Positions 1,455 to 5,452 of a DNA stretch of 5,452 nucleotides are shown one piece after another (within the stretch, counting starts at the first letter, position 1; every line of letters begins with the position of its first letter). The position numbers were made by a program, and so were the translations under genes. The notes under the pieces are model-generated. The model searched no databases. It saw only the letters and a list, made by a program, of their open reading frames with translations, and had not been told where the DNA came from. This DNA is from Actinomycetota bacterium. Lineage in GTDB: Bacteria; Actinomycetota; Actinomycetes; S36-B12; CAIYMF01. The stretch lies in contig WLOZ01000162.1 in the NCBI GenBank assembly GCA_009699025.1, forward strand, positions 1 through 5,452, written 5' to 3'.

Positions 1455-2039
1455 GTGGCGATGCAAGGCGGTCAAGATGGTGAGGCGCTCCTCGAACTCG
1501 GAATCTCGCTGCACCCCGAGCACGACCTCGCCCGGCATCGGCTCATGACGGTGTTGGCCAGCCGCCTCGGATACGCGTCGGTTGTTGTCCCCCGCGAATG
1601 TGCCAACGCCGATGAGCTCGCCGTCGACCTACGTTCCGTGGCCGCTGGCACGGTTGTCGAAGTCGACGATCCCACCGATGTGCACGTGGTTCGCGCTGCT
1701 CACCTCGACGCCATCCGCGTCGCTCGAGCCACCCTTGACGCAGCCGGCGACACTCGTCGCGTTGTCGTAGCTGTGCCGGTGGCGATCGGCCGAACCACGA
1801 ATGAGGCGGAGGCGCGCGCCTCGCGCGACAGTCGGTTTGTCGGCGATCAGCATCCCGAGCTCAGCGGCATCTTCGGAACCTTCGAGCAGGCGCAGCGACA
1901 GGTGATCGAGATCGCCGGGGCCGGCGGCGGGGCGCTGCGCGTGACGCTCGCCGATGACCCTGACATCGCCGACCTGATGGCTCAGGTGCGGGCCCTGGTC
2001 GTCGGGCCCACCGTTGTCCTCCATCGACAGGGGCCCTAG
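1455..2039 (+). CDS. Short luciferase-like monooxygenase (LLM)-related protein, function unknown
   Basis: From GTG 1455 the product is 194 residues. No enzyme can be named with confidence. Residues 14-46 (LELGISLHPEHDL, then LASRLGYASVVVP) resemble the first beta-alpha unit of luciferase-like flavin/F420 oxidoreductases, where an early helix ends in 'LGY/F-x-S-V'. Residues 102-165 (RRVVVAVPVAIGRT, EAEARA, then SGIFGTFEQAQRQVIEIAGAGGGALRVTL) resemble the C-terminal unit of the same family, which normally reads 'G-T-P-E-E-V ... G-A ... L'. Full-length LLM proteins are usually about 280-350 residues, so the middle of the barrel, including much of the substrate/cofactor region, appears to be missing. 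The frame is intact and ends 7 bp from the convergent regulator gene. It may be a degenerate paralogue kept as a small protein. Its neighbours do not reveal its role. Confidence 0.65.
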   Translation: MAMQGGQDGEALLELGISLHPEHDLARHRLMTVLASRLGYASVVVPRECANADELAVDLRSVAAGTVVEVDDPTDVHVVRAAHLDAIRVARATLDAAGDTRRVVVAVPVAIGRTTNEAEARASRDSRFVGDQHPELSGIFGTFEQAQRQVIEIAGAGGGALRVTLADDPDIADLMAQVRALVVGPTVVLHRQGP

Positions 2040-2046
2040 GCGGGCA

Positions 2047-2886
2047 TCAGGGGATTGGCAACCCCGGAGGGGTGGTGATCGAGCCATGCGCTAGGTCCTG
2101 GTCGATCGCTACGGCAGCGCGGCGCAACTGCTCGAGGAACTCGCCCGTGAGCGTCTCGAGCGGTACGCGGGCCGCATGGGCGCTGACGTTGACCGCCGCG
2201 ATCACCGCGCCATCGGCCGCGTGAATCGGCACGGCGACCGAGCGCACCCCCGTTTCGAGCTCCTGGTCCTGGAGAGCCCAGCCCCGCTCACGCACCACCG
2301 CAATCTCGGCCCCGATCGCGAGGGGGTCGGTGATGGTGCGGTCTGACAGCGGGTGGAACGCCGTCGTGGCGAGGTAGTGCGCGAGAGTCTCCTCGTCGAG
2401 CGACGCGAGCAGGACCCTGCCCATCGAGGTGCAGTGCGCCGGAAGCCGGGCCCCCACCGTGAGGCTAATCGTCATGATGCGGTTGGTGGCGGCACGGGCG
2501 ACGTACACGATGTCGGGCAGGTCGAGCACCGAGGCGCTGCACGACTCGTGCAGCCGATCGGCGAGATGCTCGAGGTGGTCCTGGGCCACCTTGGCCACCG
2601 TCGCCGATGACAGGTACGCGAACCCGAGTTCCAGCACCTTGGGCCGCAGGTAGAACAGTCGTCCGTCGCTGCCGACGTAGCCCAGCGCCTCCAGGGTGAG
2701 CAGGAACCGCCGGGCAGCCGCCCGGGTGAGCCCGGTCTCCCGGGCCACGTCTGACAGCGTGAGCCGTGGCCTATCTCGCGAGAAAGCGCGGATCACCGCG
2801 AGCCCTCGATCGAGTGACTGGACGAACTCCGGCGCGCGGGGGGCAGCCAGAGCGGGGGGAGCGGGGGGAGCGGGGGGAACGGGCAT
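2047..2886 (-). CDS. IclR-family regulator, PcaR/PcaU/PobR-type
   Basis: The 279-residue cytoplasmic DNA-binding protein probably controls the divergent dioxygenase operon and its own gene. Residues 20-75 form the winged helix-turn-helix: EFVQSLDRGLAVIRAF, then LTLSDVARETGLTRAAARRFLLTLEALGYV. The stretch DGRLFYLRPKVLELGFAYLSS (75-94) is characteristic of the aromatic-acid branch (PcaR, PcaU, PobR). The effector-binding IclR domain follows, with HCTSMGRVLLA (151-161), ERGWALQDQELETGVRSVAVPI (200-221) and a GAVIAAVNVS strand near 226-235. The ATG at 2886 is the only usable start because an in-frame TAA lies 9 bases upstream of it. No good ribosome site precedes it, so a leaderless or very short-leader message is possible. 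Residues 4-16 form an unusual Pro/Ala tract encoded by a 9-bp tandem repeat. Known relatives respond to beta-ketoadipate, protocatechuate or 4-hydroxybenzoate. The effector here (hydroquinone or a downstream acid such as beta-ketoadipate) is inference. Confidence 0.9.
   Translation of the reverse strand: MPVPPAPPAPPALAAPRAPEFVQSLDRGLAVIRAFSRDRPRLTLSDVARETGLTRAAARRFLLTLEALGYVGSDGRLFYLRPKVLELGFAYLSSATVAKVAQDHLEHLADRLHESCSASVLDLPDIVYVARAATNRIMTISLTVGARLPAHCTSMGRVLLASLDEETLAHYLATTAFHPLSDRTITDPLAIGAEIAVVRERGWALQDQELETGVRSVAVPIHAADGAVIAAVNVSAHAARVPLETLTGEFLEQLRRAAVAIDQDLAHGSITTPPGLPIP
2852..2878. repeat. Three perfect 9-bp tandem repeats in the regulator's 5' end
   Basis: The unit gcgggggga occurs three times without a mismatch (2852-2860, 2861-2869, 2870-2878). 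On the coding (minus) strand each unit adds Pro-Pro-Ala, giving the flexible PPAPPAPPA tract just before the DNA-binding domain. The unit is three codons long, so gain or loss of copies would keep the reading frame. Confidence 0.93.
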
Positions 2887-2906
2887 GGGATCGGTTTACC
2901 ACAAGT

Positions 2907-2940
2907 GTTCGCTGAGCGCACATACCTTCGCACTGCGAAC
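2907..2940. promoter_or_regulatory. Composite operator module 1 (regulator-proximal)
   Basis: Two 15-bp boxes are separated by 4 bp. Box A (2907-2921) is GTTCGCTGAGCGCAC, a near-palindrome. Box B (2926-2940) reads CTTCGCACTGCGAAC and contains the perfect 13-bp palindrome TTCGCA-C-TGCGAA (2927-2939). Box centres are 19 bp apart. Box A agrees at 12 of 15 positions with the PcaR/PobR-type operator GTTCGATAATCGCAC as I recall it from Pseudomonas. The module ends 20 bp before the regulator's start codon, so occupancy would be expected to block that gene's promoter. Binding by the adjacent IclR protein is inferred. Confidence 0.77.
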
Positions 2941-2981
2941 AGGTGGGTTCACCAGTTTTCGCGGTACATTCTGGATTGGGG

Positions 2982-3010
2982 TTGACGCGCGGGTGCCCGG
3001 GGTGTCGAAT
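2982..3010 (+). promoter_or_regulatory. Candidate sigma-70-type promoter for the dioxygenase operon
   Basis: TTGACG (2982-2987) is a good -35 hexamer. At a 17-bp spacer sits TCGAAT (3005-3010), a mediocre -10 matching four of six consensus bases. Transcription would begin near 3017, inside operator module 2, which fits repression by steric block. The -10 is weak, so an alternative promoter overlapping module 2 and activated by the regulator cannot be excluded. Confidence 0.4.
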
Positions 3011-3012
3011 AG

Positions 3013-3046
3013 GTTCACCCTGCGAACGCATGTTCGCTCAGCGCAC
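3013..3046. promoter_or_regulatory. Composite operator module 2 (operon-proximal)
   Basis: Box C (3013-3027) is GTTCACCCTGCGAAC and box D (3032-3046) is GTTCGCTCAGCGCAC, again with a 4-bp gap and 19 bp between centres. Box D differs from box A by one base. The whole module, reverse-complemented, matches module 1 at 27 of 34 positions. It ends 39 bp before the ATG of the dioxygenase small-subunit gene. It is the likely control site for the catabolic operon. Confidence 0.77.
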
Positions 3047-3074
3047 ACTTTGTGATCATTGACCACCGAGTTCC

Positions 3075-3080
3075 GAGGAG
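3075..3080 (+). promoter_or_regulatory. Ribosome binding site of the dioxygenase small-subunit gene
   Basis: GAGGAG lies five bases before ATG 3086. This supports ATG 3086 over an in-frame TTG at 3059, which has no ribosome site and would add nine residues unlike the family. Confidence 0.8.
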
Positions 3081-3085
3081 AACCC

Positions 3086-3613
3086 ATGGCCGGGCCGACC
3101 AACGTATCCGGAGCCGTCGAGGCCGCGTCGTACACGACCGTCTTCGGCTCACTCGCCGATTACACCAAGGGCGGGGTCGAACTCATCAACGACGACCCCC
3201 GGCACTACGCATTTTCCAATGTCTTCGAGGTGGCCAGCACCAGCAAGCCGTGGGAGCTTGTCGCCGTGGGCAAGAACATGGAGTACGTGCTCGAGGTGGT
3301 GCGCGCCGAGGGCACCAGCGAGTGGCGCACCGCGTCGCACGACCAGTTTGCGCTGTGCATGGACGGCTCCGTTGAGATCGAGTTCCGCACCCTCGCGAGC
3401 ACCGTCGCCGAGGGTGACGAGGGCTCGCGGGCGATTACGGGCGAGCCGGGCGAGCGCATGGGCCGCGTGGTGCTCTCCCACGGCCACCAGGGGCTTCTCC
3501 CCCGGGGAGCTGCGTACCGCATGAGCGCCGCGTCGGCGTCGGTCGTCCTCATTCAAACCATCGCCGGGCCCGACACCAAGTTCCGCTGGTCGGAGATCTG
3601 CCAGACCTCCTGA
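3086..3613 (+). CDS. pnpC: Hydroquinone 1,2-dioxygenase small subunit (HapC/PnpC-like)
   Basis: The 175-residue product (roughly 19 kDa) matches the size of the small subunit of the two-component hydroquinone dioxygenase (HapC of Pseudomonas fluorescens ACB, PnpC of Pseudomonas sp. WBC-3). With the large subunit it forms an alpha2beta2 enzyme that cleaves hydroquinone to 4-hydroxymuconic semialdehyde. The sequence has a cupin-like pattern of short beta strands: HDQFALCMDGSVEIEF (85-100) resembles a first cupin motif and GHQGLLPRGAAYRM (133-146) a second, but a full metal-ligand set is not evident. This agrees with the large subunit holding the iron. There is no signal peptide or membrane segment, so it is cytoplasmic. 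It is first in the operon, 72 bp before the large-subunit gene. Assignment rests on size, fold pattern and the strong identification of its partner. Recognition of this subunit alone is less secure. Confidence 0.82.
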   Translation: MAGPTNVSGAVEAASYTTVFGSLADYTKGGVELINDDPRHYAFSNVFEVASTSKPWELVAVGKNMEYVLEVVRAEGTSEWRTASHDQFALCMDGSVEIEFRTLASTVAEGDEGSRAITGEPGERMGRVVLSHGHQGLLPRGAAYRMSAASASVVLIQTIAGPDTKFRWSEICQTS

Positions 3614-3685: not shown

Positions 3686-4672
3686 ATGAGCGTTGACGCC
3701 AGCACCCCCACCACCGCCTCGGAGCCCGGCGGCGAGGGCTACCGCACCTTCACCCTCGGCGAGTTCAGCTTCCGGCGTGACGAGTACTTCGCGTACATCG
3801 GCTGGCCCACCGGCAGCCACGTCATGAGCGTCGACGCCTTCCTGCGTGCCATGCAGCGCGACATCGCCTGGGACTTCTTCTACGGCATCGTCAACTTCGA
3901 CGGCATCTTCGGCACCATGAACCACTACGGCACCGTCGACCTCTTTGCCGGACGCTACAGCGACTCCTACCGTAAGGCCGAGCTCGACTACAGCGAGAAC
4001 ATTGAGTCGGGCATCATCCGCGAGCAGTTCAAGGCGATTCTTGACGACTGGACCAACGCCACCTTCGACCCCTTCGCCTCACCCCACGAGACCGGCCCCG
4101 CGTTCGGCGTCAAGAACGGCAACAACGTTGCGGCCATCACCCGGCGCCGCGTCGCCGCGGCCCGCATGGTCAACGTTCCGGGCGACGAGGAGCTGCGCAG
4201 CGACGAGAACGGCCATCCCGTCAATCGCATGTTCCGCGACGTGCCGCAGGATGAGCCGCTGGTCGAGGCCGAGCCCGGCTTTGAGCAGGAGGTTGCGGCC
4301 TTCAACCTCTACAGCTACCTGGCCCGCTCGCAGGTCACCTGGAACCCCTCGGTGGTCAGCGTGTGCAAGGACTCGCTCTTCTGCCCCACCACCGAGGAGT
4401 ACATCCTCCCTGTCATCCACGGCAACGACCGCGTCGAGTGGTTCCTCCAGCTCTCCGACCAGATCACCTGGGACGTCGAAGATCGCGACACCGGCGCCGT
4501 GCGTTCACGCGTGGTCATGAAGGCGGGCGACGTGTGCGCCATGCCCGCCGACATTCGGCACCAGGGCTACTCGCCTAAGCGCTCGATGCTGCTGGTGTGG
4601 GAGAACGGAAGCCCTGAGCTGCCCGAGCTCATCGCCAGTGGCAAGGCCCCGACTCACCCCGTCGAATTCTAA
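3686..4672 (+). CDS. pnpD: Hydroquinone 1,2-dioxygenase large (iron-binding) subunit (HapD/PnpD-like)
   Basis: The 328-residue product (roughly 37 kDa) fits the 38-kDa iron-binding subunit of HapCD/PnpCD, a non-heme Fe(II) ring-cleavage dioxygenase acting on hydroquinone. The decisive evidence is the metal site. The C-terminal cupin contains IHGNDRVEWF, placing His245, Asn247 and Glu251, and PADIRHQG places His292, 41 residues after the Glu. As recalled from the PnpCD structure, the iron ligands there are His256, Asn258, Glu262 and His303. The order and spacing are identical with an offset of 11 residues. The N-terminal half (about 20-140: FTLGEFSFRRDEYFAYIGW, then the FFYGIVNFDGIFGTMNHYGTVDLFAGRY region) carries aromatic clusters and no membrane segment. 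All ligands are present, so the enzyme should be active. The substrate range (plain versus substituted hydroquinones) cannot be read from the sequence. The gene ends 11 bp before the aldehyde dehydrogenase. Confidence 0.92.
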   Translation: MSVDASTPTTASEPGGEGYRTFTLGEFSFRRDEYFAYIGWPTGSHVMSVDAFLRAMQRDIAWDFFYGIVNFDGIFGTMNHYGTVDLFAGRYSDSYRKAELDYSENIESGIIREQFKAILDDWTNATFDPFASPHETGPAFGVKNGNNVAAITRRRVAAARMVNVPGDEELRSDENGHPVNRMFRDVPQDEPLVEAEPGFEQEVAAFNLYSYLARSQVTWNPSVVSVCKDSLFCPTTEEYILPVIHGNDRVEWFLQLSDQITWDVEDRDTGAVRSRVVMKAGDVCAMPADIRHQGYSPKRSMLLVWENGSPELPELIASGKAPTHPVEF

Positions 4673-4683
4673 AGTCGCCCCGG

Positions 4684-5452
4684 ATGTCGATGCCCACCCA
4701 GCTGTTCATCGATGGAGAGTTCACCGACGGTGTCGAGGGACGCACCATCGAGGTGTTCGATCCGCACGACGGAACCCTGATTGCCGAGGTAGCCGAGGCC
4801 ACTGAGGCCGATGTCGACCTCGCGGTTGCCGCGGCCAAGCGCGCCTATCCCGAGTGGAAGCTCATGGCGGCGAGCGACCGCGGGCGCCTCCTGCTGAGGC
4901 TGGCCGACGCCATTGAGGCCAACGCCGAGGAGCTCGCGCTGCTCGAGACCCGCGACACTGGCCACCCGCTGCGCGACTCGCGCGGCCTCGACGTGCCCCG
5001 CACCGCAGCGCAGTTCCGCTACTTCGGCGGCATGGCTGACAAGTACCTCGGGTCGGTAGTTCCCGTCGACCGTGGATTTCTCGACTACGTGGTGCGCGAG
5101 CCGCTCGGAGTGGTCGGCTCAATCGTGCCCTGGAACTTCCCACTGATGTTCGTGAGCTGGAAGATGGCCCCAGCACTCGCCGCCGGCAACTGCGTGGTGA
5201 TGAAGCCGTCGGAGCTCACCCCCCTCACCGCGCTGCGCGTGTCGGAACTGGCGGCCGAGGTTGGCTTCCCGAAGGGTGTCATCAACATGCTGCCGGGCTA
5301 CGGTCAGACGGCCGGGGCACGCTTGGTGAACCACCCGGATATCGCGAAGATCTCCTTCACGGGCTCCACGCCGGTCGGTCGCATGATTGCCTCGCAGGCG
5401 GCGGCCAACGGCACGCGCACCCACCTCGAGCTCGGTGGCAAGGGCGCCAACA
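4684..5452 (+). CDS. pnpE: Aldehyde dehydrogenase, probable 4-hydroxymuconic semialdehyde dehydrogenase (PnpE-like), partial
   Basis: The frame is open from ATG 4684 to the right edge, giving the first 256 residues of an NAD(P)-dependent aldehyde dehydrogenase that is normally about 480-500 long. Visible landmarks are VPWNFP with catalytic-site Asn151, VMKPSE with cofactor-binding Lys174, FTGSTPVG (225-232) of the Rossmann fold, and LELGGK with the general-base Glu249. The catalytic cysteine, expected some 30 residues later, lies outside the window. Family features fix the class but not the substrate. The role comes from position: it follows a hydroquinone dioxygenase by 11 bp, as in known clusters where this enzyme oxidises 4-hydroxymuconic semialdehyde to maleylacetate. 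No clear ribosome site precedes either ATG (4684 or the in-frame 4690), suggesting translational coupling to the upstream gene. The alternative is a generic betaine/benzaldehyde-type dehydrogenase recruited to the operon. Confidence 0.88.
   Translation, partial: MSMPTQLFIDGEFTDGVEGRTIEVFDPHDGTLIAEVAEATEADVDLAVAAAKRAYPEWKLMAASDRGRLLLRLADAIEANAEELALLETRDTGHPLRDSRGLDVPRTAAQFRYFGGMADKYLGSVVPVDRGFLDYVVREPLGVVGSIVPWNFPLMFVSWKMAPALAAGNCVVMKPSELTPLTALRVSELAAEVGFPKGVINMLPGYGQTAGARLVNHPDIAKISFTGSTPVGRMIASQAAANGTRTHLELGGKGAN

Follow-up and report, generated by a model that had tools for sequence, protein, structure and literature searches.

The gap between an IclR-type regulator gene and a divergently oriented hydroquinone dioxygenase operon holds four palindromic boxes that are real, exactly placed and not a product of chance. 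They lie within the 5,452-nucleotide stretch of DNA analysed here (the window), and are arranged as two modules of 34 bp, one beside each gene. Comparison with related gaps makes it very probable that the boxes serve the adjacent IclR-type regulator as operators, and it suggests that they represent ordinary IclR tandem operators which would have been doubled in one actinobacterial group, giving one for each divergent promoter. An autoregulating repressor of the PcaR type with two tetramer operators, one per gene, is the probable explanation of this arrangement.

Boxes and genes of the divergent gap

The regulator gene (2047–2886, minus strand) encodes an IclR-type protein of the PcaR/PcaU/PobR subfamily, which scores above the curated cut-off of TIGR02431 (327.9 bits against 284.75), carries PF09339 and PF01614, and matches the TtgV sequence with an E value of 2.9e-11. 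Three 9-bp repeats (GAGCGGGGG) at 2850–2876, in the N-terminal coding region of this gene, give a proline-rich tail. On the plus strand, the other side of the gap is occupied by the genes for the small subunit of hydroquinone dioxygenase (3086–3613), the large subunit of hydroquinone 1,2-dioxygenase (3686–4672; PF18191, E 2.2e-51) and an aldehyde dehydrogenase cut by the window end (4684–5451; PF00171). The small-subunit ORF has no Pfam or NCBIfam match and is assigned by its position and conservation beside the large subunit. Further away, a small ORF (1455–2039, plus strand), likewise with neither a Pfam nor an NCBIfam match, has relatives located ahead of the dioxygenase genes in numerous loci, including Nocardioides and Streptomyces loci in which no such regulator was found (L008, L010 and L037), and is a candidate unnamed member of hydroquinone clusters. 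A CoxE-like VWA protein (PF05762) is encoded at 13–1344 on the minus strand and is conserved in this neighbourhood in relatives.

Module 1, on the regulator side, consists of the outer box A (2907–2921) and the inner box B (2926–2940), while module 2 consists of the inner box C (3013–3027), which lies over the start point predicted for the dioxygenase operon, and the outer box D (3032–3046); none of the boxes is assigned to a strand. Each box matches GTTCGCNNNGCGAAC at 11 of 12 positions, and these are the four best scores anywhere in the window. All four agree with GTTCGC-N3-GCGAAC at 11 of 12 positions, and contain 6, 6, 5 and 6 palindromic pairs (of 7) in boxes A to D, respectively. The pattern GTNCG-N5-CGNAC is fully fitted by boxes A and D, with one change each in boxes B and C. 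The sequence-only reading of this DNA had proposed these box coordinates, together with a geometry of 4 bp inside each pair and 19 bp between centres, a 27/34 match of module 1 to the reverse complement of module 2, and a module-to-module distance of 106 bp close to ten helical turns; all of these were reproduced, the distance corresponding to 10.10 turns at 10.5 bp. Its distinction between A-type and B-type boxes is not borne out by their identical 11/12 scores against GTTCGCNNNGCGAAC, which make all four equal members of one consensus.

The boxes also stand clear of what shuffled sequence yields. The best inverted 34-mer in 500 dinucleotide shuffles of the gap reaches at most 23/34, compared with the observed 27, and 1000 shuffles of positions 2838–3110 produce zero box pairs at 19-bp spacing with a score sum of at least 18/24. 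In a comparison with the three-box PcaU/PobR arrangement, in which a third half-site stands in direct repeat outside the palindrome, each module presents four alternating half-sites, and box B has a weak left half in the relatives.

The gap had further been described as a large inverted repeat with one module beside each gene. The placement of one module per gene stands, whereas the inversion is not conserved: in ten relatives, the two modules match at 20–23 of 34 positions when inverted (mean 21.7) and at 18–24 of 34 when aligned directly (mean 21.1). The largest difference between inverted and direct match is that of the window itself (27 versus 22 of 34). In addition, the single modules are self-symmetric, at 24/34 and 20/34 in the window and at 16–28/34 in the relatives. 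Because the modules of the relatives match about as well directly as when inverted and are themselves self-symmetric, the mirror inversion has no separate support, and it was rejected as the essential feature. It is also highly improbable that the inverted repeat serves as an RNA hairpin or terminator. Its arms of 38 nt are 82% complementary, but 72 nt lie between them, the dioxygenase message is predicted to include just one arm, and no terminator-like site was found in the window; what recurs is palindromic boxes with fixed spacing, and the inversion of one module relative to the other is not conspicuous.

Conservation of the modules and the predicted promoters

A scan for the large subunit yielded 37 loci, and genomes in which it was detected numbered 13 of 166 in one actinobacterial order, 7 of 396 drawn from the phylum and 8 of 394 drawn from the class, the three samples overlapping. 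Thirteen complete gaps were compared (the window, L001, L002, L051, L004, L005, L006, L009, L048, L049, L050, L044 and L066). Left out were L003, which lies at a contig start and was replaced by L051 of the same genome; L007 and L046, whose positions and boxes are as in L006; L038–L043, which are the same places as L001–L005 and L009; L045, replaced by L066 of the same genome; L047, with only 66 bases upstream; and L075 and L076, which carry partial regulators at contig ends.

Both modules are present in 11 of the 13 gaps, one at each gene, and the module 1 pair is found at 19-bp spacing in all 13. Conservation in relatives, which the sequence-only reading had named as a check, thus extends to the box spacing and to the module at each gene, and not to the inversion. 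L044 and L066 keep the regulator-side module, the TTGAC element and the operon, and lack the operon-side module; in L045, whose contig starts inside the gap, module 1 is visible and module 2 is absent. Among box pairs with a score sum of at least 18/24 and spacings of 12–44 bp in the 13 gaps, 24 are spaced by 19 bp and the next most frequent class holds 5, at 30 bp; none is spaced by 15–18 or 20–22 bp. In two close pairs of gaps the modules are identical at 30–34 of 34 positions, and the DNA between them is identical in 42 of 62 and 51 of 92 columns.

A tree built from 18 large-subunit rows places the window with L001–L003 (100/97). L008 from Nocardioides and L037 from Streptomyces, which have no regulator match and no module, are nested among the two-module rows (87/91 for a six-row fork), and this nesting indicates that loss of the control region or gene transfer has probably happened. 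L006 and L007 agree in gene positions, in identities and in the sequence of the gap, and their MAGs carry the labels Ilumatobacteraceae and Nanopelagicales, respectively, which is a sign of misbinning. A search of viral contigs gave no further gaps, and a plasmid search returned 20 records, every one below 80% identity.

The modules co-occur with the regulator. No module was found upstream of the small-subunit gene in any of 29 loci without an IclR match, where 300 bases were scanned (244 for L034). This control started from 35 loci, of which L003, L045, L047 and L054 were dropped because their contigs end within 23–160 bases, and L040 and L059 as repeats. Six dioxygenase gaps from more distant loci have an IclR gene next to them; five of these carry a single module (L018, L052, L053, L056 and L058), and L014, in which the IclR neighbour is present, has no 19-bp module. 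Among regulators of the order with no dioxygenase found in the locus, L064 keeps module 1 at the regulator, L072 has one box, and L073 and L074 have no module. A phylum-wide search returned at least 41 matches to the subfamily regulator, in 27 of 396 genomes, and 29 of these matches were scanned as new loci (L077–L105). With a threshold sum of 17/24 or more, one 19-bp module is present in 12 of the 29 and none in 17; three of the 12 coincide with L058, L056 and L053 above, and in one, L098, a pair spaced by 20 bp scores higher. Two modules 80–130 bp apart occur in none of the 29. L082 and L084 are subfamily regulators beside a lipoprotein-like gene, with the module at that gene. In L082, whose divergent gene is thus a different one, a single box stands on the regulator side at a distance of 91 bp from the module, which is 8.67 turns and off phase.

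The modules also hold defined positions relative to the predicted promoters. The predicted −35 element of the dioxygenase operon, TTGACG (2982–2987, plus strand), retains TTGAC in all 11 two-module gaps, and a predicted −10 element, TCGAAT (3005–3010, plus strand), follows after a 17-bp spacer. The start of the −35 element lies 30–32 bp upstream of box C in 11 of 11 two-module gaps, and TTGAC lies 29–34 bp upstream of the corresponding box in 5 of 5 more distant single-module gaps. This distance puts box C over the expected start point, which we infer to be at about 3017. Position 5 of box C is A or T instead of G in all 11 gaps, as if this base were constrained by initiation. On the regulator side, a weak −10-like element, TAAACC (2893–2898, minus strand), lies 6 nt before the ATG as a predicted leaderless promoter. 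In 14 gaps (the 13 and L064), box A is 19–23 nt away from an in-frame regulator start, and some of these gaps hold a second in-frame start. TANNNT precedes such a start by 6–7 nt in 10 of the 14, compared with a mean of 0.35 and a maximum of 4 of 14 in letter shuffles of the same stretches; the remaining four, including the window, have TANNNN only (L051 was read by hand). The regulator message is probably leaderless, with box A of module 1 over its −35 region. A consensus promoter scan of the window gave no site at its threshold for either gene, and the assignment of promoters of the sigma-70 type therefore rests on comparison.

Helical phase and the proposed regulation

The distances between the two modules in the 11 gaps are 83, 83, 84, 84, 93, 93, 94, 106, 114, 125 and 128 bp, with a resultant of 0.81 at a period of 10.5 bp; the peak is broad (0.83 at 10.75 and 0.81 at 11.0). 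Against a null in which the best period of 10.2–10.8 is taken and distances are drawn evenly from 80–130 bp, a range chosen after the data had been seen, the phase has p values of 0.00015 for all 11 gaps, 0.005 for the 8 distinct distances and 0.034 for 6 clusters. As the window had suggested the idea, it was left out of a second test, which gave 0.0003, 0.0097 and 0.06 (five clusters), respectively. Six hand-chosen tree contrasts gave a p value of about 0.04, and between the sister rows L004 and L005 the distance changes by 11 bp, one turn. By comparison, no phase is seen when module 1 or module 2 is measured against the start of the small-subunit gene (resultants of 0.30 and 0.34). There is modest reason to think that the module distance changes mostly by whole helical turns. 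The earlier proposal that both modules lie on one face of the DNA is supported by phase that is kept across relatives although the distance varies from 83 to 128 bp, which supplies what a loop would need. The distance from module 1 to the −35 element is phased as well (resultant 0.75), since module 2 is locked to the dioxygenase promoter, and phase alone thus cannot separate a loop from activation in phase with the promoter.

In the repressor model that we prefer, each 34-bp module would be the site of one regulator tetramer, bound as two dimers 19 bp apart on the same face. Module 2 would cover the start point of the dioxygenase operon and block RNA polymerase, and module 1 would limit regulator synthesis by covering the −35 region of the promoter from which the regulator itself is expressed, a probably leaderless one. 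Release may be brought about by the pathway aromatic or an intermediate, namely hydroquinone, maleylacetate or β-ketoadipate. We infer binding, repression, effector and looping from the layout of the gaps; repression and autoregulation are likely. Because the modules keep helical phase over 83–128 bp, two bound tetramers could touch and thereby close a loop around the dioxygenase promoter. Such a loop is a tentative proposal. Several observations count against the repressor model as a whole: L044 and L066 keep regulator and operon without module 2, the lone box of L082 is off phase, a module is missing from L014 and from 17 of the 29 subfamily regulators scanned elsewhere in the phylum, and the subfamily has activators among its members. 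The fuller version of this proposal may be ventured with like reserve: a loop of 8–12 turns would hold the hydroquinone promoter inside and the regulator's leaderless promoter at its edge, a promoter that ancestrally had a single module having gained the second one in one actinobacterial group, with the phase kept by selection.

The same modules could act as two independent tetramer operators that form no loop, their phase reflecting shared descent and few independent spacing changes, and this has close to an even chance of being correct. The distances fall into about six independent classes, for which the p value is 0.034 (0.06 without the window, 0.04 by contrasts), and single modules are found elsewhere, with module 1 alone in L044, L066 and L064. 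Set against this, other distances measured in these gaps vary with no phase, and the difference between the sisters L004 and L005 is 11 bp, one turn. In the manner of PcaU and PobR, which are activators of the subfamily, module 1 might be an upstream site from which the regulator activates the dioxygenase promoter, phased with RNA polymerase, and module 2 might have a tuning or repressing role. Although the phased distance from module 1 to the −35 element would suit such activation, as would L044 and L045, in which module 1 lies 50 bp from the −35 element with no module 2, we regard it as unlikely: module 1 keeps a distance of 19–23 bp to the regulator start as compared with 50–96 bp to the −35 element, and the five more distant operons carry only the module near the operon start.

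Relation to known operators

If the loop is real, it would be the first evidence, as far as the literature was searched, that duplicated tandem operators of the IclR family can be joined by a loop, and its confirmation would add looping to the modes of this large family. The gaps offer a natural and testable case of a bacterial control region whose spacing seems to change in steps of a whole helical turn. Furthermore, likely operators and promoters are now marked for the hydroquinone pathway of uncultured actinobacteria, for use in regulon prediction and sensors. Among the literature matches listed, a scope with subscription papers mostly outside it, no report of looping in the IclR family was found. 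The searches likewise found no literature joining a hydroquinone dioxygenase with an IclR regulator, the match concerning a LysR-type regulator, and none linking Nanopelagicales with hydroquinone.

GalR, LacI and AraC are looping repressors that use a pair of operators sharing one face of the DNA, separated by several turns, around a promoter. They belong to other protein families, and looping in the window is a proposal. The operator sequence of TtgV differs from the window boxes, and TtgV is not of the PcaR type. It is similar to the present regulator in being an IclR-family protein, solved on its operator (PDB 2XRO) and cited as binding as a tetramer in PMC8222616. The same source lists the operator of Corynebacterium glutamicum PcaR, also an actinobacterial PcaR-type regulator, as GTTCGC-N3-GCGAAC (PMC8222616, Table 1), the consensus to which the window boxes conform; there, PcaR is listed for the use of 4-hydroxybenzoate and protocatechuate, with no hydroquinone dioxygenase.

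The sequence-only reading had regarded the pairing of boxes as unusually elaborate. However, Suvorova and Gelfand (2021; PMC8222616) predicted tandem palindromes 18–22 bp apart for 94 orthologous groups, with weaker spacing peaks at about three and four turns, and read them as tetramer sites. Together with the PcaR consensus, these 94 groups make the 34-bp module an ordinary one, sharing with the IclR-family tandem sites both the consensus class GTNCG-N5-CGNAC and the 19 bp between the centres of its two palindromes. The window gap differs from them in a second whole module 8–12 turns away, one per divergent promoter, of which no mention was found in the parts of that source consulted. Thus the module itself is known, and the variant part is the second module, which supplies one for each divergent promoter and lies in helical phase with the first.
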